64,000 nt of DNA, taken from contig VXCM01000497.1 in NCBI GenBank assembly GCA_014773175.1, positions 164,789-228,788 on the forward strand, given 5' to 3'. Positions 3,580 through 55,679 of the stretch are shown here, piece by piece. This DNA comes from Lucifuga dentata (lineage: Eukaryota > Chordata > Actinopteri > Ophidiiformes > Bythitidae). Position numbers and translations under genes: made by a program. Numbering within the stretch: the first letter of the stretch is position 1; every line of letters begins with the position of its first letter. Below the pieces are notes generated by a model that saw nothing but the letters and a program-made list of their open reading frames with translations, did no database searches and was not told the DNA's origin.

Positions 3580-9935
<6,356 letters not shown>

Positions 9936-11553: not shown

Positions 11554-14500
11554 TTAGTCTCCTTCCTTCACAGAGTGATGCCCTTTTTTCCTCATTACGA
11601 TCCCAGCCTCAAGGATTGCTGACTGTAGAGCCACCCCAGCTGGTAACTTCTTAAAACCCTCTTCTGTGATGTGGCTTATCTTGAGATAACCTCCAGGTCT
11701 GTGCAATGACACCCCATGGAGGTGAGAGAAGAGCAGAGGTAAGTCTCTGGTTAGGGTGTAGTGAGAAACCAGCCTCAGCTCAGTGGGGATGTCCGTCTCC
11801 TCAGAGTATTCAAAAATGCCTGCCATGTACTTGGACAGGTCTTGGCCCCTGGCTTTGGCTCGGCCCACCTCCTCTCCAATTAGGTGGACGGCTGCAGCAG
11901 TGCTGAAGGTGTTGGATCCCCAGCTGAGCTCTCTGTGTGCTTCCTCATTATCATCATCATCATCATCATCATCTTCTGGCTCTGGCTGAGGTCTGTGGCT
12001 GAGGCCTTGGGAACAGATCACTAATACAAAGTCGCTCTCCCGAATTTGCCGACAGTACCAGGCCATACTGCCTTCCTCAGCCAGGCTCAGAGAGTCCCAC
12101 AGGTCCAGGCACACCTGTAAGAAATGAAAACAGGTTTACAGGAAACAGCTGTAAAAATACAGTGAATATCCCTCATTAAAGGAAAGAACAAGGAAAAAAT
12201 GCAGGATAATCATTAATGCATTGGCAATATGTTGAGTGAAAAATAATTAAACTGCAATTTGGTTTGATTATTTACTATATTAGCATTGAAACTTGCTCAC
12301 AGAAGTCAGAGAAACCAACCACTGGGTACACACTATCAATAGCACTCCCAAAGGGTGGCCAGAGATGGCCACATTCCAACTGACAAGCCCTTAAATATCT
12401 CATATAAATTTAAAACCAAACTGTTGCGTATTGGCCACCATATTATAGGACACTTTTACAAGGATTCTCTTATTATTTGATAAGACTGAACCTACTTGTT
12501 CTTATTTGAAATTTCCCTAAAAGTGGCATAACGCCTGTAGAAAGCACTAAAGGCTTCATCATTCAAAGTATGGGTGTTAACACTTAAAATGTGCTCAAAA
12601 TGCAGGTCGCTAAACTAGAACCATCTGATTCTGTGTCGTCTCTACCTGAGTGGCCATGTGTTGTTGTACGAAGACCCCTAACTGCATGACGGCTTTCACA
12701 TGGGCGGGGCCATCATTGCTGCTGTAACAAATTAGAAGACGAGGAGGAGTCAACCTGCTTCTGGGCAATGACATCACTTCCTCCTCTGTCCCGCTCTCTT
12801 GATGTTGCTTAATAATGTCTAAATAGGCAACAAAAAAAAGAAGTCCAGTTGCATTTCACAAACTGCTGGTAATAATATAAGAAGATCATCTGTGTAAAAT
12901 GAACAATGATTATGTATGGTTTATCTTTGCACCTGGTCTGATGTCAAGTTTCTTCATCCTCAGCTTGAGTCTCTTCCAGGTAAAAATAGCCAGTAGGACT
13001 ACAAATATGGCCACTCCAACCAGGCTAAGTGGAAGCAGCAGAGCCAAGGAGGGAGTGCCACCTACAGGCAATGTTGCTTCTGAGGAGAGGAGAGTGATGA
13101 CAACATTTACATGCACATTAAAATAATTCTAATATGATTAAGGCAACAAGTTGATTTTTTTCAAAACCATAATAACCGTAATAAAACCATAATCAGATTG
13201 AATTCAATTCAACATACATAAATCAATAGCATACTCCGAGGAGCACGATTAGATTATCCAATTGTAAGTTCATTTATTCAAGCATGTAAACTCTCCGTCA
13301 GCTTACAAATACAAGGCTTCAGTACATTTGTCATGGTTCCCACCCTGGAGCAATTGCCCTGTTCCAACCTGCCAAAAAGAACAGTACCAAGAAGGGTAAC
13401 GAACCCCAGTTCGATTAAACCGGACCAAATCATGTAGATGTGAAAATATCCTTAATTTTTCCCTCAAGCTCTTTTTCTTTCCTCACATAACTACTTCCAT
13501 CACTGTTGGCGCTTATAACCCTGTGCATCGCCTTGAATGCCTTCAAGGAGAGGAGAAAAGTGTGCACCATTATCCCCATTTATATAATTCATTGTATTCA
13601 TTATATAATTCATGCAATAATCAGAGTATAGCGTGCATGTAACTGGATCAGCGACTGATAGTACTATAGAAACGACTTCTCCAAACAGATCAGACTTATA
13701 GAAAATAAGACGTTTCACGTGCACATTGTCTATATCATACCTTGTTTAATGTGCAGAACCTGAACGCTGAATGTTTTTCTCACTGCATCTACTTCATTAG
13801 CTGCAATCTAGGATAAAAGAAATTCTGTTTTAGGTCAAAGCACAAGTGATTTTCACAAGATTCCAAAGAAAAAGATTAAAAATTTATTAATTAGATTATG
13901 TGATCAATGTGAAGATTAAATGTAATTACTTGCATTTTACCTCACAAGAGTAATTGGTTCCTTCTTGAAGGTCATGGAGCTGATAACTGTGGTGAGTTGT
14001 GTTTTTGGTTGAATTCTAAGAAATATTAACAAATGTTGATGAGTAATTAAGAAAGCTTCAGAGAAAATATGGTGGTATAAATGATCCTACAGAAAAAAGT
14101 AAAACTAAAAATTGTAAAGTTTGATAAAACCCACAGGTGTGATGTCGGTGTATTTCTTCATGCCGTTTGCGTAGCACAGGGAAAAGTAGCTGCTGATGCC
14201 TAGGCTTGGAGGAGCCAGGTTAAAGGTCACAGTGATCGCAGTTCCTTTCTGCTGGACTTCAACGTGTTTGGGGTACCAGTCTGCAACCAGGATTAGTGAA
14301 GTCAAGTTATCAAGTACCTTCACACAGAAATAGAATTTAATCATAAGATTATGCTGTGGTATCTGACTGGAGTTTTTTGACCCTGAATTTGAGCAAATTG
14401 AGAAATATTGGAAAATGAGACCGCGTAAGTATATCAAAGATTTTTCTCTCACCTTTCTTGCACTGTTCAAGGCTGTTCTTCTCTGCACAAGCTGCAAAAC

Positions 14501-21253: not shown

Positions 21254-24200
21254 TCACCGGATCTGAAAAAGAAAGACAGCAAGCAAAACGTGAATTTAAT
21301 CCTGAAGGATCAAATACAAGTGCAATATAAACGAAAAAAAAAAAAAAAANAAAAAAAAAAAAAAACAATAAATAAAAGGTATTTATTAAAGGGACGTCTC
21401 TTAATTTTTTTTTGTTTGTGTTGAGAAGCAGTCTGAGTGCACATGGCCCTCCTTCCTGTGGAGGAGAGAGCTCGCCTATGCAGGAAAAGCTGGTGGCATA
21501 GCACAATAAGCAACTTTTTAGGTCACGGAACAATCAGGCTATATGGATCAATGGAAAGATGACATACTGTATAAAAGTTCATATTTTCAAGACTTTTTTT
21601 TGGTGCCATTTAAATATATGTCAAAAGGAATAACATAGCACACAAGGTATTTTAGCCCAAGGTAATCATACCATAAACTTTGTGTCTGTTATCCATCCTG
21701 CTATCCAAATAACAGACATATCTCCACTTATGGAAGCATCCAGCCTCCTTTATTTGCATTCTTCTCTCCCTCATGCACACGAAACATGCTGCTTCTGTTT
21801 ATTCAGACTACAGTCTATTTTTCTTGGACTATGACTAAATATTAAAACAACATTTTGTCAGGCTTTCACGTTATTGTGTAAATAATGAAATACATACTGC
21901 CAACAAAGCAGGCGTATTCCCTGTTTTCAATGTAAGAATTAAAGGACCATACCATCCATTTTGCATGTTTAAGCCTAATATATTAAATTTTCATACATGT
22001 TACATTACTGACAATCACTTCCCAAAGGATAAAACCGTATTTTAACTTTCCTGATATTTTGCAAAATCTCTTAATCTTTCAAAATCAAATATTCAAGAGG
22101 TACACCCACCTTAAAAATCAATGTTTTGCCTGCTCATAGTTACACAACAGTATGAAGTCACGGTCGTTTAAATTTTATGATAAACACAGGTCTTCTTTTG
22201 GGACTATATTCCCCGGTGGAGACATACATTCACTCCACACTTTTTATTGCATTTAAAAGCTAAAATTACGTAACTTCTAAAAAAAAACCTGAATACACGT
22301 TTTGTTTGTAATGATGGATTACCTATCCCAAGAAAGTTTCAAGTATCAACAATTCGATTTTAATAGCATACCAGAATGAACTGAAACCAATGGCGGTCTG
22401 GAAGGTAGGAAAAACATCTTTAATTCNATAGCATACCAGAATGAACTGAAACCAATGGCGGTCTGGAAGGTAGGAAAAACATCTTTAATTCACCGTTCCA
22501 GTAGTATACTTTGGGAAATGATTGTCAGTAACCTTACATGTATAAAAATTGAATATATTAGGCTCAAACATGCAAAATGGCTGTTATGGTCCTTTAACAC
22601 TTCATCACTGCCTGGTGAAACTGGGTCATTTATTATTGAATGAGGCATTTAGCAAATCAGTTCTCACCGTATATTTGTCCCATTTCTTCTCCGGGTCGTA
22701 CGGCTCCCAGCGACTAGCAGGAAAAATGTGCTTATTCTTCTCATACCAGCTTCTCAAAACAACTTTGCCTGCATGAGACTTCAAACGACAGCAGAAATTA
22801 CTTTAGGTTTACGTCATTAAATACAGATTAAATTTTATATATTTTTTTTAAACTGAAATGATGTATGACTAGAAATTTTGTAGGCAGAATGTTGATCATA
22901 ATCACAGCTTCTGCTATGTTTAAGACAATTTTAACCATTTCTTTTTTATTTTTTGTAGATTTTCACATTCAAAAATTTGTACCTCATCTTTCTCTACAGT
23001 GGCGTCGTTCACCAGTCGAATATCATCGTGGACGTCAAAGCTGAAGAGAGGACCTGTGGGGAAAAAGGTGCACTGAGTGAAAAAAAGCTGAAAATCCACG
23101 TTTACATTCTTCCATATACAGAAACAAATGTTTGTGTTGTCATGTTTTTTTTTTGACATTCAAAATATAAAACAATGTAAGCTATAAAAAAGGGTGCTTT
23201 CATACCAGATTTGCCTCTAGCTTTGGTCACAATGAAGTCATAGAAACTATGGTGCTGAAGGAGACAAAGTGATTAGTTGAAATAAATCGAAAGTTTCACA
23301 GCTGTTGGAAAAATGACGATACACACTATAAATCTAGAGACCTAAAGCTGTTTCAACTGATATAGTGTTTCCCATACATAGGTGAAACTTGGTTGGCCCA
23401 GACACATCTAGGTTTCGCGGGACGACCCAGCCTTAAAAACAATACAACTCTGACACTGCTGTCACACACGCTGACATGCGCACATACATAGGCTGTACTT
23501 GTGCGGCCCCAAGAAAGCAAAACCGAATGTCCGACTGCTCCACTACCTGTGTGTGTCCCGTTTCGGTATTTCTCGGCAAGGTTATCACTGAACCCAACCG
23601 TCACACACCGTGCCACCCACCACCACAAGTACATTTTCAACCTATGGGAAACACTGTGATAACTGATTACATTTAAGCAAAGCAGGTTCAATTCAGGGAA
23701 CACATTAGGGAACACATCCTGTTCAACTGAGAACTGCTAAGTAAATGTTTGTTTGACGCAAGCAGCTCATGCTGATGTAGCTCAGTCACCAACACTGAGG
23801 GCATGCAATTTAATCTCAATATTCATAATTCACTGTAATTATGACGTGTAATTGCTGTGAACACACATCGTTCTGCCAAGTGTAAAACGTGATTGCATGT
23901 AACACGACTGAGGCCAAGTCTGTAAAAGCATCCGTTTCACTTTTGACAATAAGCACTGACACACATTAAAGTTTAGAAGTTCCACAAAAGCTGAGCAGCA
24001 ATTGAAGTGAAGTGAAGCGGAGCAAAAGAAATTGATTTAATAGTTCAGCTGTCATTCGCCGGCTGGATTTTATGGGTGGATTGTGACTGCACTCACACTC
24101 ACTTACATGTGGGATTATCAGATCCTCTTTGATGTACATCAGCTGCTCCACTCCTGCAGACCTGCACAGGAGAAAAGTGAGATTTAAGCCCAATAATCTC

Positions 24201-41500: not shown

Positions 41501-42245
41501 AGAGAAAGTGACAAGAAAGTTACAAGAAGAGGTGACAAAAGTCATGATCAGGATGGATGACGGATGCTCCCTCACCTCTTCATTGTAGCTGACATGTTGT
41601 TTAAAGTCAAGAAACACACTGAGTGGTGGTTTGGTTTATTACTGTACCTCTCTCAAATGCATCTCTAATGAGGTTAACCTCCCTCTGTGACCCAGGAACT
41701 CTGAATATCCCTTCATGGTGGAGACCTGAATGACGCACATACACATTATGTTACATATTCATAACTGCACGGTGTTTGCACACATGCATACACACACATG
41801 CACACTTCCACCTACTCATTTTCAGTTCCAAAAGCTCTCTCCTGTCATGCTTCAGCTTAATATCATAAAAACTGACTCACCGTGAAGGTTTATGAAACGG
41901 ATGCAGCTTTCAACCACCACAGGAATCTGCTGCCCGGTGCTCTGGAAGGGAACAGCGATTAGATAGAGAGTGTTAGAAACAAAGGGAAAGATTAGAAATA
42001 GGAAGAATATGAAGATGTGGCAAATAGCAGCCTAAACAGGAAGACAAAATATGTAAAGAAAGATACAAGAGACAAGAAAAAGGTTCGGCAAGTGAATAAA
42101 TGGAATGAGATGATAATAATAATCTTTTATGTGTTTGGGTTGATGCACGGTGCAGGTAAAAAGTCTCATGTCATGGCACGTACACCCAGGAAACACCACA
42201 CTGTATGGCCTGCATGAAACAAAGCAGTCTTTTTTTTTTTTTTTN

Positions 42246-42289
<44 letters not shown>

Positions 42290-45200
42290 AGAGAGGGAGA
42301 AAGCAGAGATTAGAAAAAAAAAATAGGGGAGAGTAAGAAATAAGCAGAAGAAAGATTTAAAAGCAGTGGGAAAAGGTGCACACAAAGCACACGCACAAAA
42401 GCACACTCAGACACACACTCAACAGAGGAGTCGAGAGAGGAGGCAGCAAAGAGGCCAGAGCATTTTAATCCCTTTCACAAGAGAGGAAGAGATAAAAATG
42501 GGGAATGGATGAAAGGAGAAGAGAGCTAGCAATAAGCCATAAGCATGACCATACATATAAAGGCAGCAGTACAGGGGAATGAATCATTAGTTTACGTGGA
42601 TGTGTGTGTGTGAGTTTTACCTGTATGTAGGAGAGCATGTCTGTGGTGAAGAGTGTATGGTAGAATAGGGAAACAGGTCTGGACTTTCGAACACGTACTG
42701 ATCGAGCACTTTGCATTCTGGGAAATAAATAAAATGTGCGATGCCACTTTACAAATGTGTAGTGAAAATCTGGGCCTATGAAAGGCTGAGGTCTAATGAT
42801 GTTTTAAGTTCTGCTACCACTTAAACTTTAAGTCCTTCCATTCCCCGTTAAATCAGTTTTTGATGCATTTCAGAAAATGTCCTCTCATCCTCTCTGCTCT
42901 CCTCTCTCCATTTCTCTATTCTTCTCTCAGTCACTCTTTTATTATTGGTTCTGTAAAGCAGCCATTTACCTGGAAGGGTCACTGTCAACTGCCTCAGCTA
43001 CGAAGAAAGAAAACAAGTGAGAGGTTGAGGTTTAGTTTCAGATCATCTTAGCATAAACAATGCACATTATCAGTAGAATTAGGTGTAAGAATTAATTAAA
43101 GAGGACGTAATATACAGATTTTCCTGTTCTCATTTTCATTAAGGGCCTATTATGAAACCTTTGCAATGCGTTCATTTGCAAATAACACGCTATGAACACC
43201 GCTGTGCACACTGAGTGAAAACAGGCTGTTTTAAGTAATGTCTCTTTAAGGCCAACCAATCAAAGAGCCTGCTCTGTTCTTATTGATAAACTGCATCAGG
43301 CTTGACCTTGTAATACCCACGATCAGCGAAAGATGAATGCTGGCCAAATGCTTGTTAGCATTTAGCATTAGTTTGCCTTGTGCTTTGCGCGCCCGTCTAA
43401 CCATGTGTTACATGTTGATGTAGACATGTTATAGAAGTAAAGAACTAATCAAAACTATTGCATTAAGGGGGCAGGTCAAGTCCCACGGGGATGCATTTCT
43501 TTCAGCGTGAACCTCAAGGTTTTCAATTTTGACAATTCAACCCATACATTACGCTATAAAAATGAGGGAAAATAACAAAAAGAATACACCATTTAAAGTT
43601 ACCACCCACATCATTTGCAATCCATGATAAAGTATTATCATGGATTTGAACAGTCGCAACTTTTACAGAAACTCTGCCATTCATCCAGCACTTTGATCTT
43701 AAAAGTGTTAGCAGCTGTGACATGATGATACCTTTCTGTATGGCATCTTGTAGAATATCATGTTTGGCTTGAAGTTTGGATGTCAGAGAACTGCTGATGA
43801 GGAACTCCTTCACTTTCTAAGACACAAAAATTGAAGGAATTATGACAAATTATAAGTCTCTTGAAAATGAAAGCTCCCAAATACTTGTTTTAACAACATT
43901 TTAATCAAGAAAAAGCTCTGAAGCCACATTTATATAATCAAAAGACAGCAGGAAAAATAATACGAAGACACTAAAAAGCCTAAGAAAGGTCATGTTAAGG
44001 GCACAGAATAAACAAAGAGGTCATTATAATCAGTTATGCATAGAATAAATATGTAATTATACAAATCATATCATATCCATTGAACAACACAAATTAACTG
44101 ATATTTTTTAATGAAGTCAGTAGTGTCTGGATGGATATTAGTAAAACCGTGTAAACTCACTGTAAAATAAAAGGTCTCTGTCTCCTGCTGATTGGCTCGA
44201 CGCTTGGCAAGGGCGAGTTTGGGGGCGGTGCTTCCTCCAGGGGGCTCGTGTAATAGGCTGCTCGGCAGGTCGGGGGAGGGGTTACAGTCGCTGTCACACA
44301 TACTGNGGGGGCTCGTGTAATAGGCTGCTCGGCAGGTCGGGGGAGGGGTTACAGTCGCTGTCACACATACTGTCCAGCAGGGATGTGAGTGTGGCTTTAA
44401 GCGTTTTGCTGACCTGAGAAAAAGAAAGAGAGGGTGATTTTAGTTCATTAAGCTTCTAAATATTTTGCTGAATAACTATGTTATGGAATTTTTACCATCT
44501 AAAGATGCACAGTGTAAGTTTTGTCATTAGTTGCCACAAATGTAAACTAGTGATGACTAAATTTTTTGGATTTCATGTCAATAAATGCAGTATAAGGCAA
44601 TAATGTATATTTACAATCTGAAAGTTAATCATAAGACAATGAAAGAATGAAAGCAGCATAAACAATATTGATACGATTCATTGAAAGACAGACAGACAGA
44701 CAGACCTCCTCTGTTTCCAAGGTAACAGCAGCAAGTCTAGACTGAAGCTGCTGGAACCTGGTCTCCAGCTCGTACCTCACTTGGCTCTCCGCGCTCACCT
44801 CACACACCTGCAACACACATACACACATATGCACACAAATACACACTTATCAACTGCTGTAAGATGATGATGATGATACTTTTACAGATACAGATTTTCA
44901 CGTGAATGCAATTAAAGATTTTTAAAACTTATCACTAATTTTTTAATAAATAGCAATACATTTACTGATTTAAAAAAAAAAAATTAAAATAAAGCCCCAG
45001 CATTATGGTACGCATAAGATAAGTTTTTATTCAGCTTCATTTAGGTTTCATCATCTGTGTATAGAAGCAGCAGCAGTGATTTAACCTGATCTCCTTCATG
45101 TGGGTGGTAGCTGAATCTGAATGGTAGACAGAAGGCGGTATCGTGTTGTTGTAGCAACGCATCCCTGTCTCCGCCCTGATCCAGCGATGTCACAGCAGCC

Positions 45201-45859
45201 TCCAGCTGCTTAAGCCCCACCTCCTCTGTCTTTTGGATACGCCACCTACTGGTCAGGTAGCACTTCATCACCCTCTCTATAGACAGATGGAAACCCAGAT
45301 CGCAGCACTGCCAGAGAGAAGATGGATGTAAGGAGAAAAAGAGGAAGGGAAAAGTGAGGAGAGATAGAGGAAAAAAGAAGAGATGGGGAGAGAGGTGTTG
45401 AGGTGTGAAGAAGGAAAAGAAGGAGGAGAATGAAAAAAGAAGGTAAATGGAATGAGGAGAAGGATAACTGGAGGATAAGAAGTGGAAGTGACATCAGATT
45501 TTTTTTCAGCTCTATAATATCTGTACCATCCTCCCTAATGTCTCCATTTTTCCGCCAGAAAATACAAGGAAAGATGGCACAAAAAAGATCTTTAAAACAT
45601 GCAGAAGTATGTGCATCCACATGGAAGCACAGACTCACACACACCCACACACCAATCCCAAAAAATGAACAATAAAAAAACTGGTTCTTACATCGATGAG
45701 AGTGCTGATATCCTGCAGATAGTATTTGTTCATGGCTGCATTGGCTGCTGTGAGGTTCAGCAGGTAGTCGTTACGAGCCTTGGTACACTTCAACTGGGTC
45801 TCCTGCACTCTGCCATGCCTCTGTATGCCGGCATGCACAAACACACACACAGAGAGAGC

Positions 45860-45917
<58 letters not shown>

Positions 45918-46161
45918 AAAAGATTTCATAAGAACATACATCCACATTCACTGAACAAGAAAGAACACAGACATGACTTCTTTCAATGTTACACATGACA
46001 ATATGTGTTGATGGCTAACATGTCTTCTCTTGCTCATTTCCTTTTCCTGTCGATTTACAGATCGACAGGAAGAGGAAATGTTTCAGGTTTCCTTCGTGGC
46101 ACAAAGCCACTTTATTAAATCCTGTGCCATATTTACTCTCTCTCTCTCTGTCTCTCTCTCT

Positions 46162-46195
<34 letters not shown>

Positions 46196-49100
46196 GAACA
46201 ATACAGCTGAAAGCTGCAGCTGAGCATCATCTGGAGGTTGGGATGGAAGGCTGAGCTTTAAAGTCAGGAATGAGTAAATGCAGGAGCAAACGCCTGCACA
46301 CACACACTTTTCAATCAGTTTCATGATTTAAAACCTGATGTTTCTGCTAGTACGGGCTGATAAAATTGCAAAAACCACATAAAGGTATCAGCAAATATCA
46401 AGAAAACTATACTGTTAAAAATGTTTTAGCAGAATGCTTCCTTCACATATGGGGGAGATTGCTGCATTTATTAATGAATGTAGTCTCTAATGTCTTTTTT
46501 TTTTTTTAATAAGAAAAATGAAAAACTCAGGATGGTACAAATACTTACTGAAAACCATGACAGTGCAGTTTCCAGTGATCATATTTGATGATTTTACAAA
46601 ATTATTCTGTGGCTGTTATAAGCAATGACAATAAGCCAGTAAATCAGATTAACTCTTTTGTTTATTATTTAATGGCAAGACCATAGACCTTCAGAGTTGA
46701 AATATGTGCATATAAGTTGGCCAATGATCGCTGGGATAGTGTTAACTGGGTGAGAGGCAGAATACACAGACAGGTTGCCAATCCTTGAAAGGAAATACTA
46801 AAAGAGGTTGGTAACGGGCATTTATGAATGATGGTTGTATGATGCTATTTGCTGTTATCTTCACATCAAACCTGGGCTGTGTTTTATGAATTAACTCTAA
46901 TGATTACTTTTGCAATGATGTTCAGCACATGGACAGCGTGCAAGCAGTGTTGTGACTAGGGACACACGCTTGGGTTTAAAGGAATAGATAGGACCCATTG
47001 CAAAATCTCTGAGGCACCCTCAGAGGTGCAAACTGGACGTGGCTGATTTTTAAAATGTGAATGTGCTGCCCAGAAATTGAATTAAGCACCCATGCAGAGC
47101 AACTGGGGGAGTGCACTAATCTTTCTCCACAGTCCCACTAAAATTGTCAACTCTCAGTACGACCCTATGACTTTCAGTGAGGACAAGGAAAAACTTCCAA
47201 ATAAAGCTCCATCGAGCCAGCAAGTTAATGTCAGCGTTATTCATCATCCTGACTGTCAGTTGTCACGGCATCTAAATATTTTGAAACTACTTTACTCATC
47301 CTTGTCCTCCTCATCCTTTGATGTTTTCTGGTTATTAGTCTTCTTATCATCCTTGCTATCAGAGTCACTATCATCAGTCAGATTGTCATAGGTCTCAACA
47401 GTCTCCGATCCTGATCTCTTCCTCAAAACCCCAGGCTGTGGTTCTGCTTCATCAGCCTTTGTACTGACTGTGATTTCATCCCTTTGTTGCTTCTTTGGCA
47501 CCCTAGAATGTGTGTCTGCCTCATCAGCATCAGTGGTATCTGCATCTTCATCCCTTTGTCTCTTCCCAGATCCCCCTGGTTGTGGGACCACCTCATCATC
47601 GGATGAGACTTCATCTCTTTGTCTCTCCCTGGATCTCCCTGGCTGTGGGACTGCCTCGTCAACCTCATCATCAGATGAGACTTCATCCCTTTGTCTCTTC
47701 CCAGACCCCCCTGGTTGTGGGACTGCTTCGTCAACCTCAACATCGCATGAGACTTCATCCCTTTGTCTCCTCCTAGATCCCCCCGGCTGTGGGACTGCCT
47801 CAGGATCCTCAGCAATATTTGCAACCACTTCCTGATCAGCAGCAACTCCAAGTTCTGCAGCGACAGCAGCAACTGCGACTTCAGCCTCAGCAACAGCAAC
47901 TTCAGCCTCATCAGCAACTTCTTCCTCATCAGCAACTTCGATTTCAACTTCGTCACTATCATCTTCAATGTTAATGGAATCTTCATCTCCAGAATCCTCC
48001 TCCTCGTCCTCCTCAATGTATTGTACTTCATCTTCTCCTTGAGGAACAACTGGCAAAGGTTCTGGCCCTGTAAAGTATTTACACAATTATATCAGTACTG
48101 CTATTTATATTATTAAATTTAAATTCACATGACTGTATTCAAAATGGTGAAATAATCTCCCCACCTTGGCAGATGTTTTGTGCTTGTTTTTCTCACTGTC
48201 ATACAAAAGACGTAAAGTATTTTGCAACACATGACATCTCTCTTTGATTCATCCTTATGAGAAGTAGAAACACTACAAGCTCATTATGTCTCCACAAAAT
48301 CATTAAAATTATATCACTACTATCATTCATATAATTAAAAATGAAAATCAGTGTGTTGAATGGTTTTACCTAAATGACTTCAAATCTGGGGCATTCTGAT
48401 TTGACTTTGCTTTTTAAAATGAGTCTAGAGCCTTAGATGTTCATGTAAAATGCTGAATAAAGCCCTTACCTAGAGGAGGATGTTCAGCTCCTTGGCCATT
48501 CCTTCCAGCTTCATTCTGCAGCGCAGCAACAGTCAAGTTGAGGACATTGATAATTCGGATCCTTCTGTTTGTCCTTTGTCCACGAGGAATCCTTGGGGGA
48601 CTGTTTGCCACTGCAAGATCATTCAAAAAAAATTACGTCACTTCTACATTCATTCATTCACCATTAGTAGAACAGCAAATTAGTATTTTAAACTATTTTC
48701 AATACATTTTTGTTCTCAGAAATAACTACTGAAACCTAAAATGAACATGTCCATGAAAATGATGTGCAATGTGTTCACCTTGAACATGCACAATTCCCAT
48801 AAATCTGAATCCTTGTCCGATATGATGGAAAACTGAAATGACGAAGAAATTAAAGTATTAGTTATTTGAAATGAAATTATGAGTTATCTATTCTTGTTTT
48901 GCCCCATGTTCTGTGGATACTTTTGGATTCAGCTGTATTCAGTTGTTTGTCAAGTCAAGTCCTTCCCCCACCCTGCAGCCCTGCAGTAATACTAATAATA
49001 ATAACTTTATTTATATAGCACCTTTTTAAAACAAAATTACAAGGTGCTGCACAGAACAGGCATTAAAACACAAAAGATAAAATCCAAGGAGACAAAAACA

Positions 49101-52100
49101 ACAATTATATAAAAGAACATAATTAAATAACCACAATAAAACAGTGCAACAGTTAAGAGAAAGCCTTATGATAAAAGAAAGTTTTCAGTAATGTTTTAAA
49201 AGAGGACCAGTCTGAGATCCTCTGGCAGGGAACTCCACAGCTTAGGGGCACGAACAGCAAAGACCCAATTATCTTTGGTAACAAGGCGAGATTCAGGAAC
49301 TATCAAAACCTTCCTGCCAGAGCATCTCAAACAGCGGTCAGGCTTGTAAGGAGTTAAAAGATCACAAATATAGAAAGACGCCTGACTGTGTAAGGCAGAG
49401 ATCCCCAACTGGCGGCCCATGGGTCCTATCTATCAGGCCCTCAGATGACTTCTCCAAAAAAAAAAAAAAAAAAAAAAAATCTTTAGTTGCACTTATCTCG
49501 GGATTGTATCGTCATAAAATGTCATGCTTGGGCTCATTTTGCTCAGGAGAAGCTAAGCTTTCCATAAATATTTTATATCTCTATTTACTGAGAAATGGTG
49601 TTTATAAAACATTGTGAATGCTACATAGGGACGAGCACACGGTCTCTGGTCTGTCAGTGGAATATTACGCACATATTACGCACATATTATTATGCATGGA
49701 GAACGCATGCCTATTGCCATGGCTACGTAAAAGCTGATAGGACCACTGACCCATCAATCAAATCCTCTGCTAGTCTACTATTGAATCACAGAGATGGATT
49801 TTAAAATTTAGACTGCCCTCAGAAGTTACATCATCAAGAAGCAACAAAGCTAGGTTTTAGCTCAGAGGCTATCTTGTGCTTTAGTTAAATTTATCTCAGG
49901 ATCGTGTGGTCATAAAATGTCACACTTGGGCTCATTTTGTTTGGGAGAATCTAAGCTTTCTGAAAATATTCATATATCTCCATTTTATTAAGAAATGGTG
50001 ATTATAAAATACCGCAAACGCTACAATGGAAGTGCTGGGCCCGGTGCCGAGCCACTCAGGTTGTGAAGGGTTACGTTTAAAAATAAATAAAAATTAGAAA
50101 ATTATTTTCTGTTGTTATTACCAAATGAGAGGAAAAGCTCGGGTTGGATCTGGGGGGTGGGAAATGATGNGGTAGTGGCCCTTGGCTTGGCATGCTTGAT
50201 ATAATTTGGCCCTTGGGGAAAACTAGTTGGGAAACCTTGGTGTAAGGCTTTAAAAACAAGCAATAAGATCTTAAAATCAATTCTAAAACTAACTGGTAAC
50301 CAGTGAAAACCTGCAAGAACTGGAATGATGTGGTCACTTGAATGAACATTCTTACCTGCAAATGAACGAAATCTTGGCCCATCACCTTGGCCCTCCTGAC
50401 CTGAGAGAAGGGGAAAAAAAATAATTTGTAATCCTAAATACAAAACTTTTCCCCATTTGATTTATGTTTATATTTTTATAATGCCACTAATATAGCAGAT
50501 TTCAATATAAACAACATCTATTTTAGTTATTTCATACATTAGTTACTTTAAATTCAGTTTCAAGACAAAATCGAGCAATACAGTACAATTTCCCTTTTAC
50601 TGGTAATAGAATTGAGTGTCACCTTGGGTATAGGATAATGCAGATTACATGCTATTGTAAGAAGAAAATGACGCTCAGTTCTTTAAAATGATCATTTCTA
50701 TTAGAAATTGGTGAAACAAGCTCACCACATTGGTAAATTGTTTGGCCTTGAAGCACTATGAGATCATGCAATTAATTCACAACGACTGTTAATTATTAAA
50801 ATGATTGAAAACTTACATGGAAAATCACATCTGTGTCTTTGGTTATTGTTGGACATGTTGAACAGTTGAAAACAGAAGTCTGACAGAAACAGAATTCTTT
50901 AACATCCTGCTGGGATGTCACACTGATGTCATGGAAACAATAAGTAAACAAAATATATTACACCTAAAATATGGTACCTTTCTTGCTAACCGATCATTAC
51001 AAGACACTCTTTAACAGTTAAATATGACATTGGCTTAAAAGTAGGAAAATTAAATGATTAATAAATTTCAAATGATATGTTTATGATTTTCCTTTAACCC
51101 CCACCACCACCGCCATAGAAATAACCAAACAAAAATATTACACTTAACTTAAAATTACAATTCAATATGGCACCTTTTTTGATAACTGACTATTAAATCA
51201 AATCATGCACAACTGATAAAATAATACACCAAAAAAAACAAAACAAAAAAAAAACAAAAAAAAACAAAAGTAAGTAGGAAATCTGAGTATTCTTTGAATG
51301 AATACATGGTTATATCTGTCTGCACGGTGGTGGAACATGAAAGGTTGGTCAGATTTGTCCACTCATGCATGTCCATCTGACAATGCCACGACTGTTAGCG
51401 TCATCATTTAATGAATGAATAAATAAATTAATTAATAATCTACTTACATTCACATTAACAGGTCAAAGACATTTTCACTGCATACCAAGCACAATATTAA
51501 AAAATGTCTGAAAGGAAAAAAAAAAAAAGGCACGAATCCATTCCAGTGAATTATCACTTCGTTTTAGATAAATACTGACCTTTGCAACACACTCTGTAAG
51601 AGATTAATATGATATTAGATTAAAAGTAAGGAAATTTAATGAGCGATAACATTTATATTTCAAATGATATGTTTGTTATTGTCATTAACCCATATTTTTA
51701 TGATGCAAGTACTGGAAGACCTCATGATTTTATGCGGCCCGCTGCTGCGATGTCATGAAAACAATAAGTAAACACAAACAACACTTTCCAATTCCAGTAT
51801 GGCACCTTTCTTACTAGCTTGATGTTAAAAAGCAAACATAACTGATGAAATAAATAATCCAAACAAACGTCCATCTGTATAGTTGGCAACCTCATGACAG
51901 GACCAGGATAGTCGATAAAGTGCTTGAACAATGTAATGAAGCAGGACCCAAGAGAACTTCTAAGTACCTGAGTCTTTCTCACCATTTTATAATTTTTGTC
52001 TGTGTTACATCATGGTCTTTGTTATAAACGTATAAGCCTTTCTTTCTCAAGGTAGAATTCTCCCTGTTTAGAGCAGGGTTGTCAAAAACACGTGGCTACA

Positions 52101-53736
52101 CAGTCGTCAAGCCCGCCAGCGCACACACACTACCTTCTCCATCAGTCTCTCCATCTTCTTGACTGAACTCCGCCTCTGACCTCCCGATTGGCCGGGGCCG
52201 AGCTCTGCTGACTTGCCCGTGTGTCTCTCCTCCAATCGCTCGGCTTCCTTGAGTTTTCCCTCAGCGATCAGACAGTCAGTGTGATACTGATTATACGTCT
52301 TCAGAGCCTTCAGCAGCATGTAAGAAAAACAAGAGAGGAGCCACAGCAGCAGCAATGGCATCATCACGCTAAAAAAACCCCTCTTATTTTGGCAAAGGTG
52401 AAGTAGGAGACTGTAGGATTTCCATAAAGTCTTTTCTGAGCTCATATCTTATTATAATAACAGTTTTTTTTTTTTGCAATATTACATACCAATGATATAA
52501 AGTACTCACCGNTCTTATTATAATAACAGTTTTTTTTTTTTGCAATATTACATACCAATGATATAAAGTACTCACCGTCTGCAGTTCAGTGGTGACTTTC
52601 AGCAGCTCATCCTGCATCTGGACTCCAACCTCCTTGCTCTGTGACGTACAGAATAAGAATAACTTTGTTTTCCCCACGTTTTAAGGAGTCTTAAAGGACA
52701 ATACCAGTGATTTTGCATGTTTAAGCCCGATGAATACTACATATATGCATGTTACATTACTGACAATTTCCAAAACATAAAAGTGTACTTTAGTTTTCCT
52801 GTTATTTTGCCAAATCCCCTAATCTTCCAAAATCAAATGTTCAGGTGTTACACCCACCTTAAAATTCAGTTTTACCTGCTAACATGTAAGTCTGAATGTA
52901 GAAGGGATGGTCATTTTAAATTTTTTGGTTTTTGGTCTCATGTTGTCATGAGAAAAGGATCGCATTAATGCTTTTGATCATTTAAAGGATTCCATGTTCC
53001 TTTTACAAGATGCGAGGANAGGATCGCATTAATGCTTTTGATCATTTAAAGGATTCCATGTTCCTTTTACAAGATGCGAGGATTTCTCTTAGGACTATAT
53101 TTCTTGGCGGAGACATACATTGTCCTTTGTACAGCTCCGGGTTGGACCGGTTAAATAAAGTTATCATGTAGTTTTATACATTTCTCTGCCTAACATTCTA
53201 TCTGTAAAGGTTTATCCTGTAAGTCTTCTCTTGTGTTAACTACATCTTTTTCTGCATCTTTTTCCTAACATAACCCCATCACCCCCTCACCCGTTTGTGC
53301 AGGCGGTGTGTGTCCTCAGTGCTGTATGCCAGCCGCTGTGTGAGTGTGTTACAGCAAGTGTCACCCAACGCTGCATGTTCCCGGCTCTCCAGACGAGTCT
53401 GAGTCAGCAAAACAGACCAGACCTGACACACCGACTGACCCCACTGCTCCTTCCTGCAGACGGAGACAAGAAAGATTGATCGTTGAGATATTGTAATGAA
53501 ACAATCACTTAGGGACGGGGCCCGAGAAACAGAAAGTGCCCACGTGTGCACACACATACTTCTTAGTCTTGTGGGTGAAACGCTCGGTGAGTTTGTCGAG
53601 TGCACGGGCGTATTCAGCCTCAATGTCCCCTCGGCGCCGGAGAAACTCTGAGAGGTCAGAGAGCTGCTGTTGTTTCACCTCCACCTGAGAGTCTAAAATC
53701 TTTATCTGGTCTGTCAGCTGGGCCCGCAGGTCTGGA

Positions 53737-53775
<39 letters not shown>

Positions 53776-55679
53776 ATCCATGTGTGTAAACCTGGACAGA
53801 CACTCTGACACATGCAAAACATAACCAGCTGCAAGACAAAGGTATGAACAAACATGATCACACCCTTAAAGGACCATACTGGTGATTTTGCATGTTTAAG
53901 CCCAATAAATACAACCTGCACACATGTTACATTACTGTCAACCATTTCCCAAAACATATTACGGGAGCAGCAAATTTTAGATTTCACACTGCCATTGATT
54001 TCAATTCATTCCAGTATGCCATAAAAAAAAAAACAAAAAAAAAACAAAAAAAACTTGTAGAGACTTGAAACGGATAGGCAATCCATCACAGCGAACACAA
54101 TGTCTTTCAAATATTTTGTTGAAGTAACATTAATTTTAGCATTTCAACATGTCTCCACCCAGAAGAAGATGCTTTTACAGAGAAATTTAAACAACCATTC
54201 CTTCTACAAGCAGACAAAAATGTTGAATTTTAAGGTGGCCGTATCATCTTAACATTTGATTTTGAAAGATTAGGGGATTTCAAAATCAAAAATAACATGA
54301 AAATTAAAATACAGCTTTATGTTTTGGAAAATGACTGGCAGTAACATCATATATGCAGGTAGTATTTATTGGGTTTAAATGCAAAAATCACAGGCATGGT
54401 CCTTTAACACACACAATCACATCATACACCGATATAGACATACAGGATTATGTTTACTAGGTGGTACTGGTCAATCTCATGCTTCTGAGGAATAGTTCAA
54501 TATCACAATAATGTAATAGAAGTAATCTAATTTGAGAATATACTGTTCTAATCACACAATTCAACTGAATAATCTCCCTTAAACACAGACCAGGCTGTTA
54601 AATAATTCATTTCCAAATCAATAATGATTACAATCTTCCCTAATGGGGACAAAATTAAATCAAATGGGGCACATGCTGTCGTTTGTGTATATTTGAGGAG
54701 AATCTAGTATGAAAGTCTTTGATGCCTCCTTTGACGCTCCACAGAGTAATTTGAGAGCAATTTACAATAATCTCACATATCCTTCTATTACACACAAACG
54801 CTTGTATGCAAACACAACCGGGCCAGTAGTGACAGCCCGGCGCAGCACAAACACTCAGCGCACATATAAAGTAATCCTCTCTCACCTCTCGCTTCATCTC
54901 TTACCCATTCAACTCCCTCACCTTCTTTCTCACGCACCCCTCCCTGCCGTCTCCCTTCTTTTCCTCTTTACTCCTCCTCTCTCTTGCTCTGAGTACACGG
55001 CCCGGGGCTGACTGGATGTGAGTAGACAGCATCACTAATACTGGCTATAAATACACCTGTGTAGTACAGTACAGAGAGCCAGCCAGCCACAGCACACTCT
55101 CCAAAACGCAGAATAGCGCCTCCACCAACATGCACAACACACACGTTGCTGTTGTCATGTGAAAAGGATCGCATTAATGCTTTTGATCATTTAAAGGATT
55201 CCATGTTCCTTTTACAAGATGCGAGGANAGGATCGCATTAATGCTTTTGATCATTTAAAGGATTCCATGTTCCTTTTACAAGATGCGAGGATTTTCTGAC
55301 CGCTTGGCTTTAGGAAACTCTTTAAAAAGCTCAAATCTCTCTTACGCTGCACTGTCATCAAACTCCATAGTGGTGTTTTTTCTCCTTTTAGGAAAATTTG
55401 AGATTTTTTTTGTTGAGATACGAACACATTCACATCACAAGGCTGAATTGCTGTGCAAAGCAACTGCACGTTCTGTTCACTGATGCATGAATATGTGCAT
55501 CTTGTATGCAGTGTTACACACAGGTATGTGCACAAGATGCGACTTAAAGGGCAAACAGGGCAAACCCATGACTGTACACACACACATGCACACACACATA
55601 GCGACTTACCTTTGATCTGCGATTCGTATTCAGCCAGACTGCCCTTCTCCCTCCTCAGTTTTCCATGCGATGTCATCAT
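35563..55679 (-). CDS. arhgap4: Rho GTPase-activating protein 4 (F-BAR/RhoGAP/SH3), 23 coding exons
   Basis: srGAP-like protein that bends membrane and switches off Rho GTPases. Exons (minus): 55610-55679, 53560-53731, 53291-53453, 52576-52638, 52134-52307, 45692-45820, 45086-45307, 44706-44807, 44161-44413, 43732-43816, 42970-42997, 42621-42717, 41881-41941, 41648-41725, 40713-40841, 40120-40225, 39712-40001, 38667-38722, 38274-38445, 37919-38005, 37598-37705, 37132-37234, 35563-35760. Two exons contain an assembly duplication around N (44306, 39778); removing one copy restores frame, giving 938 aa (human ARHGAP4 946). N terminus MTSHGKLRREKG matches human MAAHGKLRRERG; the adjacent ATG at 55679 is an alternative start. 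F-BAR ~20-365 includes LKCTKARNDYLL. RhoGAP ~498-690 has the arginine finger in GIFRVPGS (R526). SH3 ~716-773 has EELSF-like PAELSFKQGELL and DWWRGE. The C-terminal MNSVFKELL is shared with human. Intron 5 hosts a separate gene. Confidence 0.96.
37553..37580. repeat. (GA)n microsatellite beside arhgap4 exon 21 donor
   Basis: About 16 nt past the donor at 37596-37597; the transcript carries CU repeats. Confidence 0.85.
37883..37908. repeat. (TG)n microsatellite beside arhgap4 exon 20 donor
   Basis: The transcript reads CA repeats about 10 nt past the donor at 37917-37918. Confidence 0.85.
38639..38660. repeat. (TG)n microsatellite beside arhgap4 exon 18 donor
   Basis: The transcript reads GUGAGCAUACACACAC, placing CA repeats directly after the donor at 38665-38666. 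A second CA run at 38780-38810 lies on the acceptor side of the same exon. Confidence 0.85.
39060..39335. repeat. Interspersed repeat family B, copy 1
   Basis: Shares GAAACCTTTGCAAT, GTGCACACTGAGTGAAA, TGTCCCTTTAAGG and CTGTTCTT in the same order with 43105-43320. It lies in arhgap4 intron 17. Family unknown to me; no coding capacity. Confidence 0.6.
39717..39839. repeat. 61-bp direct duplication around N inside arhgap4 exon 17
   Basis: 39717-39777 and 39779-39839 are identical, separated by N at 39778. The exon is 290 nt as assembled; subtracting 62 gives 228, which keeps the frame between the neighbouring exons. This is an assembly artefact, not biology. Confidence 0.92.
42229..42288. repeat. 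Poly(T)-N-poly(A) junction
   Basis: A T tract (42229-42244), N at 42245 and an A tract (42246-42288) stand back to back in arhgap4 intron 12. Two different homopolymers joined at an N suggest an unresolved or wrongly closed gap. Confidence 0.8.
43105..43320. repeat. Interspersed repeat family B, copy 2
   Basis: Starts ATATACAGATTTTCCTG and contains GAAACCTTTGCAAT, GTGCACACTGAGTGAAA and GTCTCTTTAAGGCC, matching copy 1 at 39060-39335. In arhgap4 intron 10. Confidence 0.6.
44240..44372. repeat. 66-bp direct duplication around N inside arhgap4 exon 9
   Basis: 44240-44305 and 44307-44372 are identical, separated by N at 44306. The exon is 253 nt as assembled and 186 nt (62 codons) after removing one copy and the N, which restores the phase. 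An annotation pipeline would see a frameshift here. Confidence 0.93.
45841..45917. repeat. CA then (GA)n microsatellite upstream of arhgap4 exon 6
   Basis: On the transcript strand this is a long CU tract followed by UG repeats ending about 20 nt before the acceptor at 45821-45822, so it can serve as the pyrimidine tract. Confidence 0.85.
46134..46194. repeat. (CT)n then (CA)n microsatellite
   Basis: Compound dinucleotide tract in arhgap4 intron 5, below the 3' end of the nested gene. No coding signal around it. Confidence 0.85.
46661..46666 (-). terminator. Candidate poly(A) signal of the nested gene
   Basis: AATAAA on the minus strand about 630 bases below the nested stop codon at 47292, still inside arhgap4 intron 5. 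Another AATAAA is at 46467-46472. Either would let the nested gene end before arhgap4 exon 6. Confidence 0.3.
47292..50856 (-). CDS. Unrecognised five-exon gene nested in arhgap4 intron 5; acidic repeat protein
   Basis: Exons (minus): 50817-50856 (ATG), 50356-50400, 48779-48832, 48470-48610, 47292-48067 (stop TAA). All four introns have GT/AG borders and all are phase 1, giving an open frame of 351 aa. I do not recognise the protein. The N-terminal part is basic and Gly/Arg-rich (GQGDGPRFRSF; IPRGQRTNRRIRIINVLN). The last 258 residues are strongly acidic, with a 24-residue repeat of the form DEAVPQPGGSGKRQRDEVSS in about five copies, an Ala/Glu/Val stretch, and an Asp/Ser/Lys-rich end. No signal peptide or membrane helix; probably disordered, and the KRQRDE-type basic clusters could act in nuclear import (inference). 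It runs on the same strand as its host gene. The long open last exon with a maintained 72-nt repeat frame and the phase agreement support a real gene; expression is unproven. Confidence 0.6.
47470..47815 (-). repeat. 72-nt coding tandem repeat in the nested gene
   Basis: About five units of 24 codons, core VPQPGGSGKRQRDE followed by a variable acidic tail. The second and third units are nearly identical and the outer ones are more diverged. All units keep the same reading frame. Confidence 0.8.
48991..50338. repeat. Interspersed repeat family C, split by a hAT insertion
   Basis: The first part (48991-49395) starts AATAATAATAACTTTATTTA and runs through GGACCAGTCTGAGATCCTCT; the second (50240-50338) continues GTGTAAGGCTTTAAAAAC and ends near GAATGATGTGGTCAC. 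The two parts are adjacent pieces of one element, separated by the insertion at 49396-50239. A short related piece is at 7925-8005. It lies in intron 2 of the nested gene. Confidence 0.65.
49396..50239. mobile_element. Non-autonomous hAT transposon with 8-bp target duplication
   Basis: Left end CAGAGATCCCCAACTGG, right end complement CAAGGTTTCCCAACTAG: imperfect inverted ends typical of hAT elements. The 8 bases GTGTAAGG flank both sides (49388-49395 and 50240-50247), as expected of hAT insertion. Length 844 bp, no transposase frame. Inside, 49482-49628 and 49881-50029 are diverged direct copies of each other. N at 50170. Confidence 0.85.
50925..51835. repeat. Decayed tandem duplication upstream of the nested gene
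   Basis: Two sequence modules recur. Module P (AACAATAAGTAAACA... ATGGCACCTTTCTTACTA) occurs at about 50929-51003, 51112-51198 and 51752-51833. Module Q (TTAAAAGTA.GGAAA.TTAA ... TTTCAAATGATATGTTT) occurs at about 51004-51101 and 51589-51691. They are diverged but collinear. No coding capacity was seen. Confidence 0.6.
52447..52577. repeat. 65-bp direct duplication around N at arhgap4 exon 4 donor
   Basis: 52447-52511 and 52513-52577 are identical around N at 52512. The block contains the exon 4 splice donor, so the assembly shows a false second donor. Confidence 0.9.
52691..53130. mobile_element. MITE-like element, copy 4 (partial) with foreign block
   Basis: Begins TTAAAGGACAATACCAGTGA and continues collinearly with copy 3 through ATCTTCCAAAATCAAATGTT. 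After a block shared with 55152-55291 it resumes GGACTATATTTCTTGGCGG, also present in copy 3. The right inverted arm is missing. It lies in arhgap4 intron 3. Confidence 0.6.
52946..53085. repeat. Block repeated at 55152-55291, each with an internal 63-bp duplication and N
   Basis: 52956-53018 and 53020-53082 are identical around N at 53019. The same 63-bp unit, doubled around an N in the same place, occurs again at 55165-55227 and 55229-55291. Four copies in total within 2.4 kb. Confidence 0.85.
53741..53773. repeat. (GA)n microsatellite forming the arhgap4 exon 2 pyrimidine tract
   Basis: On the transcript strand, CU repeats run into CUCGUGUCCAG, the acceptor of exon 2 at 53732-53733. Confidence 0.88.
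53866..54407. mobile_element. MITE-like element with inverted ends, copy 5
   Basis: Left TTAAAGGACCATACTGGTGA and GCATGTTTAAGCCCAATAAA; right TTTATTGGGTTTAAATGCAA and GGCATGGTCCTTTAA. The two arms are inverted complements. It lies in arhgap4 intron 1. A short A-rich tract near 54020 interrupts the left half. Confidence 0.75.
55152..55291. repeat. Second copy of the N-doubled 63-bp block
   Basis: Near-identical to 52946-53085, including the N at 55228. It lies in arhgap4 intron 1 and, unlike the first copy, is not embedded in a MITE. Confidence 0.85.

Follow-up and report, generated by a model that had tools for sequence, protein, structure and literature searches.

Introduction

Proteins of the Nopp140/NOLC1 and Treacle type are disordered and carry acidic-serine repeats, and the Nopp140/NOLC1 family is marked in Pfam by the LisH and SRP40 C-terminal domains. 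The Nanor-like proteins and the P2X7 ballast have been described with a Zn-coordinating cysteine domain (PMC7016195). Among 296 simple nested gene pairs in human, 220 lie on opposite strands, leaving 76 (PMC8467205). Here we present a predicted nested gene of the fish Lucifuga dentata, located at 47292-50856 on the minus strand of a window of 64,000 nt (assembly GCA_014773175.1, contig VXCM01000497.1, positions 164,789 to 228,788 of the forward strand). An original prediction, made by a model from the letters of this window, had placed a five-exon gene of unrecognised family here, inside an intron of arhgap4 and on the same strand.

On balance we favour the view that the locus is a real and intact gene, protein-coding and restricted to its lineage (an orphan), which lies within the arhgap4 intron and is read in the direction of its host; that it is a translated gene appears, from sequence features, rather likely. 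The same-strand nested frame that had been proposed proved distinct from arhgap4, but its exons 1-3 turned out weaker than had been stated.

Exon 5 as probable coding sequence

The firm part of the gene model is exon 5 (47292..48067, minus strand), which contains the acidic region with its 24-residue repeats and the stop codon. Between stops, its frame spans 264 codons, more than any other open reading frame listed for the 64-kb window, and in 500 dinucleotide shuffles the longest open frame was 151 codons (95th percentile 103); the long last exon of the original prediction, with 776 nt, thus lies beyond the shuffle maximum. The codon score of the exon is +126 bits in the claimed frame. The first 257 nt, which precede the repeats, are open as well, and the same was seen in 0.2% of the 500 shuffles.

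The repeats form a tandem array of 72-nt (24-codon) units at 47509..47802 on the minus strand, with approximately 4.2 copies of EAVPQPGGSxKRQRDEVSSDDEVD-like units. Their start spacings are 63, 72 and 72, the spacing of 63 corresponding to a loss of 9 nt, which confirms the 24-residue repeats claimed earlier for the acidic region. Each of the 23 spacings of direct-repeat families within exon 5 (D1-D4, D6, D9 and D16) is a multiple of 3; 20 of 36 repeat families were inspected, and the D families overlap, so that the 23 spacings are not independent. Repeat units 1-3 differ at 14 columns, of which 3, 3 and 8 fall on codon positions 1, 2 and 3. Read in the claimed frame, they have a ratio of non-synonymous to synonymous differences per site (pN/pS) of 0.23, the lowest of the six frames; the other five gave 0.81, 3.07, 0.71, 0.34 and 2.29, the first two being the other sense frames. 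In all six pairs of repeat units 1-4 the corresponding ratio of substitution rates (dN/dS) is below 1, with a range from 0.09 to 0.71.

Exon 5 behaves as a selected, strongly coding-like sequence, and it cannot start by itself: it is without methionine, and upstream exons with a start codon are therefore required. A second sense frame over the exon is open for 222 codons (47423-48091, minus strand) and would encode a basic, leucine-rich product, and an antisense frame of 147 amino acids is open over the repeat.

Gene model and upstream exons

Five minus-strand segments join into a frame of 351 codons with no internal stop. The model exons 1-5 have lengths of 40, 45, 54, 141 and 776 nt and the introns 1-4 of 416, 1523, 168 and 402 nt; all four introns have GT...AG borders, and all four splice junctions are in phase 1. 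The exon coordinates, borders, frame and intron phases of the original prediction were all reproduced. Of same-strand GTs, the donors of the four introns fall among the best 0.3 to 2.6%, and of same-strand AGs, the acceptors of introns 1-4 fall among the best 0.05, 5, 34 and 16%; given the splice matrices used, these ranks are approximate.

The tentative exon 1 (50817..50856, minus strand) supplies the start codon, residues 1-13 and one further nucleotide. Position -3 of the start context is A, an in-frame TAA precedes the ATG by 15 codons, and the exon's donor CAT|GTAAGT is among the top 1.3% of GTs. The tentative exon 2 (50356..50400, minus strand) has the strongest of the four acceptors (top 0.05%) and a donor in the top 0.3%; its codon score is +4.7 bits, and two of its three sense frames are open. 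The tentative exon 3 (48779..48832, minus strand), with an acceptor in the top 5% and a donor in the top 2.6%, is the weakest of the exons. Exon 4 (48470..48610, minus strand) combines a donor in the top 0.7% with a weak acceptor (top 34%). Two of its sense frames contain stops, and the third, the sole open one, is the frame that exon 5 requires; one antisense frame is open too.

The guanine-cytosine (GC) content is 0.53 in exon 2, 0.37 in exon 3 and 0.50 in exon 4, as compared with 0.29 to 0.31 in introns 1, 3 and 4 (0.29 in intron 1). Among overlapping local segments, the GC content of exons 1, 2 and 3 is reached by 54%, 6.8% and 44%, and that of exon 4 by 1.3%, a comparison that includes exon 4's own segments.

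The sequence immediately before the ATG is AT-rich (300 nt, GC 0.31, two CpG). Diverged direct repeats, 74-93% alike and with copies 196-824 bp apart, were observed at 50925-51829, upstream of the nested start codon; they are possibly an old duplication or a repeat element in the presumed promoter. At the other end, candidate tandem poly(A) signals, ATTAAATAATAAA, are located at 46661..46673 on the minus strand, about 620 nt past the stop codon; such signals are weak by themselves, as AT-rich DNA commonly has these motifs.

A small gene finder that combined splice scores, codon scores and an intron penalty (6, 10 or 14) was applied to the locus. The originally predicted chain scores 34.2, 18.2 and 2.2 at these penalties, and among 1000 shuffles 11, 0 and 3 equalled it; the chain that the finder itself ranks best scores 54.1, 34.1 and 18.8 and was matched by none of 1000 shuffles at any penalty. 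The antisense of the region, which has a GC content of 0.35, scores -7.2, against 34.1 for the best chain of the locus.

Several of these measurements weigh against the favoured reading. The third-position excess in the repeat variation is borderline (8 vs 3+3, Fisher p=0.055). The codon scores of exons 1, 3 and 4 are negative (-3.6, -1.1 and -1.5 bits), and all three sense frames of exon 3 are open; the codon table comes from visually recognised exons of the same window (1163 codons), whose third-position GC of 0.60, as opposed to 0.36 in the nested gene, weakens the codon test. The finder itself prefers a different chain, which begins with other exons, shortens exon 4 and reads exons 2-3 in another frame. 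In real 4-kb segments taken from the two strands of the window, the score of the original chain was equalled in 120, 112 and 117 of 200, and that of the best chain of the locus in 89, 87 and 82 of 200 (penalties 6, 10 and 14); in this control the recognised exons were masked, other exons, splice sites and GC-rich microsatellites remained, and many segments are richer in GC. For the plus strand, 116 of 201 segments reached the original chain's score at penalty 10. By GC content these were 0 of 2 below 0.36, 17 of 63 at 0.36-0.38, 67 of 102 at 0.38-0.40 and 32 of 34 above, so that even among the segments nearest in GC (<0.38) 17 of 65 reached it.

Because real segments often yield equal chains, the upstream chain is plausible but unproven by sequence, and the argument from intron phase is weaker than originally claimed. 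The statement that an all-phase-1 chain is unlikely by chance was overstated: such a chain requires three exon lengths divisible by 3, for which the expectation is 1 in 27 with random lengths, and the chain had been assembled for openness. Exon 4 is likely and exons 1-3 are plausible but not unique; the exact five-exon model, as predicted from these signals, is tenable and rather doubtful.

The foremost alternative is that exons 4-5 are real and that the 5' end differs, with different 5' exons, further ones or a different start codon, in which case the N-terminal 46 residues would be wrong. The scores of exons 1-3 (-3.6, +4.7 and -1.1 bits), open in two or three sense frames, speak for it, as does the choice of the finder, which places a first exon at 51116-51105, with or without 50755-50726, and shortens exon 4. 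The start context, upstream in-frame stop and strong donor of exon 1 argue for the model as it stands, and so does exon 2, which has the top acceptor and which the finder retains under each of the three penalties; the finder's chain has exons 2 and 3 and the exon 4 donor in common with the model at penalties 6 and 10 and omits exon 3 at 14. We regard a different 5' end as unlikely.

Searches for relatives

In Pfam the 351-residue protein matched no family at E ≤ 1. In a database of approximately 5.8 billion proteins, residues 1-125 gave 19 word-sharing candidates, none of them at E ≤ 0.001, and for residues 178-325 the 7992 top word-sharing candidates were scored, none of which reached E ≤ 1. 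This search detects proteins that have five-residue words in common with the query and are 0.55 to 1.75 times as long, and a fast-evolving relative may escape it. As a control, residues 180-339 of FAM50A, encoded in the window, returned 3631 proteins, with fishes on top among the best 120 of the 3631; the matches include short contigs with a FAM50A 96% identical to that of this fish. Since the control returns fish proteins, the lack of a close relative of similar length is informative, and together with the 96% identical contigs the two empty searches are to be added to the points against a functional gene. The earlier statement that the protein matches no recognised family agrees with the Pfam result and with both database searches with their working fish control.

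A tblastn search of the 351 residues in the 64-kb window found only the gene's own exons and no second copy. Other candidate identities were rejected. For a viral relative there were 17 pattern matches, of which none was confirmed, and for a known RNA family no match at gathering scores in 45700-52300. The only solved-structure match to residues 1-104, UNC93B1 at E 0.48, was taken as chance. A retrogene, i.e. an intronless copy of a message, was rejected on account of the four introns in the model and the absence of a parent among the search results. Among the papers listed in one open-access library for nested arhgap4 genes, same-strand nested genes, teleost orphan acidic proteins and fish arhgap4, none concerned the gene, which does not imply absence from print.

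The lack of a homologue in the two protein-database searches also speaks for another view, in which the locus is a leftover, decaying or private to the species: an acidic repeat that expanded, was once coding and is now unexpressed or untranslated. A tandem expansion can keep a stop-free unit open, and other frames over the repeat are also open for 222 residues (sense) and 147 residues (antisense). But the non-repeat beginning of exon 5 is open too, at a length rarely kept by shuffles, the 351 codons contain neither stop nor frameshift, and the repeat spacings preserve the frame. A leftover of this kind is therefore held to be improbable.

Transposable elements in intron 2

Intron 2 contains an 844-bp hAT-like element (49396..50239, minus strand) with an 8-bp target-site duplication, CCTTACAC, and partly alike ends, and an L2-like fragment of a long interspersed nuclear element (LINE) at ~50340-48990, which is interrupted by the hAT-like element and whose LINE-like frame resumes across the insertion. 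A single N is present at 50170 within the hAT-like element.

These two elements are what favours a transposon-derived frame, i.e. part of a LINE or DNA transposon, as the source of the locus. The insertions are, however, confined to intron 2 and the exons lie outside them, free of overlap; moreover, the 351 residues match no Pfam family, and tblastn in the window returned the gene's own exons only. A transposon origin is very improbable.

Host gene and nested arrangement

The minus strand of the window carries exons for the FCH, RhoGAP and SH3 domains in the order expected for arhgap4. Of six exon pieces submitted, four matched (FCH, RhoGAP twice and SH3) and two were without family. The best solved-structure match of the SH3 exon is Rho GTPase-activating protein 4 (2epd, 2e-18), with srGAP2 close (2.7e-17). 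FAM50A is located downstream of the host gene, and ARHGAP4 and FAM50A are both on human Xq28. As judged by its predicted domains, the host gene is arhgap4. An N at 44306 lies apparently in an arhgap4 coding exon (judged by the known protein), and a RhoGAP exon has another at its end (39778); both would break gene models.

The host intron extends over 6,313 nt (45821..52133, minus strand) and is in phase 0 on both sides, the flanking exons, numbered 5 and 6 in the original prediction, meeting it as ...RLMEK|gtagtg and cag|RHGRVQE. Its borders were placed with the human protein as guide; the donor ranks in the top 8% and the acceptor in the top 21%. The nested segments at 47292-50856 lie wholly within it, both genes being on the minus strand.

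Position and strand would permit the segments to be alternative 3' exons of arhgap4 itself. The host intron is in phase 0 and the nested junctions are in phase 1, and the nested exons are therefore not in-frame exons of arhgap4. When the upstream host exon is joined to nested exons 2, 3 and 4, a stop follows after 58, 43 and 25 residues, and the join to exon 5 reads 214 residues in another frame, in which the repeats are little constrained. Where nested exons 1, 1-2, 1-3 or 1-4 are spliced onto the host exon that follows, a stop comes within 16 residues. With no in-frame fusion in eight joinings tried, alternative arhgap4 exons are hardly credible.

Encoded protein and proposed function

Residues 1-93 have a pI of 11.7, with 12 lysines and arginines, 10 glycines and 5 aspartates and glutamates, for which the earlier wording of a basic, Gly/Arg-rich start is fair, if the bias is mild. 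The strongly acidic region described earlier is evident from the pI of 4.05 over residues 94-351. Its first part, residues 94-182, contains 35 acidic residues and no lysine or arginine, and the repeats (residues 183-300) contain 19 lysines and arginines and 32 acidic residues. Twelve CK2-type motifs (S/T-x-x-D/E) are present, in addition to charge blocks. Single-sequence AlphaFold of the exon 5 part (257 residues) gave a mean predicted local distance difference test score (pLDDT) of 51 and helices of 18 and 4 residues; single-sequence folding is generally uninformative, and a low pLDDT is compatible with disorder. The encoded protein is probably intrinsically disordered.

In the function we propose, the basic N-terminal part would be followed by the acidic stretch free of lysine and arginine and then by repeats in which KRQR, resembling a nuclear localisation signal, alternates with SSDDE clusters. 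Such a protein may act as a multivalent nuclear scaffold or chaperone for basic partners (histones, ribosomal or RNA-binding proteins), with an activity tuned by CK2. By analogy with known acidic-serine proteins a nuclear-scaffold function is conceivable, though we consider it somewhat unlikely.

With regard to expression, the nested gene would have a separate AT-rich promoter immediately 5' of 50856 and a separate poly(A) site near 46660; its message would be spliced independently, and arhgap4 transcripts would remove the nested gene with the 6.3-kb intron. A lineage-specific multi-exon gene would then have arisen in the arhgap4 intron of one fish lineage, without a traceable parent, and would encode a disordered, CK2-regulated nuclear polyampholyte coexisting with host transcription, a full account that we put forward tentatively and with some doubt. 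If expressed, the locus would be a clean case for the origin of a multi-exon gene without recognisable parent, and for the way in which an internal gene on the host's strand, carrying poly(A) signals of its own, escapes or interferes with host transcription. If not expressed, it simply joins the many orphan frames of fish genomes.

Other features of the window

Eight of the 23 single Ns in the window (20639, 22427, 29640, 39778, 44306, 52512, 53019 and 55228) are bordered by tandem duplications that are exact and 61-66 bp long, which looks like an artefact of assembly gap closing. Thirteen more lie in or beside A or T homopolymers (2036, 10623, 11234, 21350, 25317, 31701, 35160, 42245, 56681, 58464, 59277, 63120 and 63466), the one at 42245 where a T run meets an A run, and an N at 3772 is within a G run. 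Near-identical copies of 149 nt (98.7%), 2.2 kb apart, are found at 52941-53089 and 55150-55297, each with its own N and a 63-bp tandem duplication.

Self-blastn of the window revealed a dispersed repeat family resembling miniature inverted-repeat transposable elements, of approximately 90-190 bp and 75-89% identity and in both orientations, with copies at 52691-52880, 21939-22134, 22505-22597, 2339-2528, 54224-54410 and 53865-53958. An exon at 11557-12114 on the minus strand encodes a SEFIR domain, as in IL-17 receptors, with a run of eight aspartates.

Comparison with known systems

Zebrafish nanor was considered as a fish gene for comparison. Whereas the nanor-like proteins have a Zn-coordinating cysteine domain, the nested protein has three cysteines in 351 residues (10, 14 and 201) and no such cluster, and identity with nanor was rejected.

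The protein would work like those of the Nopp140/NOLC1 and Treacle type in its alternation of basic segments with CK2-type acidic serine clusters and in its disorder. It differs from Nopp140/NOLC1 in its repeat unit and has none of the domains of that family (Pfam, E ≤ 1), and membership was rejected as no Pfam family was matched at that threshold.

In its arrangement the locus resembles the same-strand nested genes of vertebrates, the internal gene lying within an intron of the external gene in the same orientation, and differs from them in the four introns of the model and the lack of a recognised parent. Measured against the human survey cited above, a same-strand internal gene with four introns, as predicted here, is a minority type and not a new kind.

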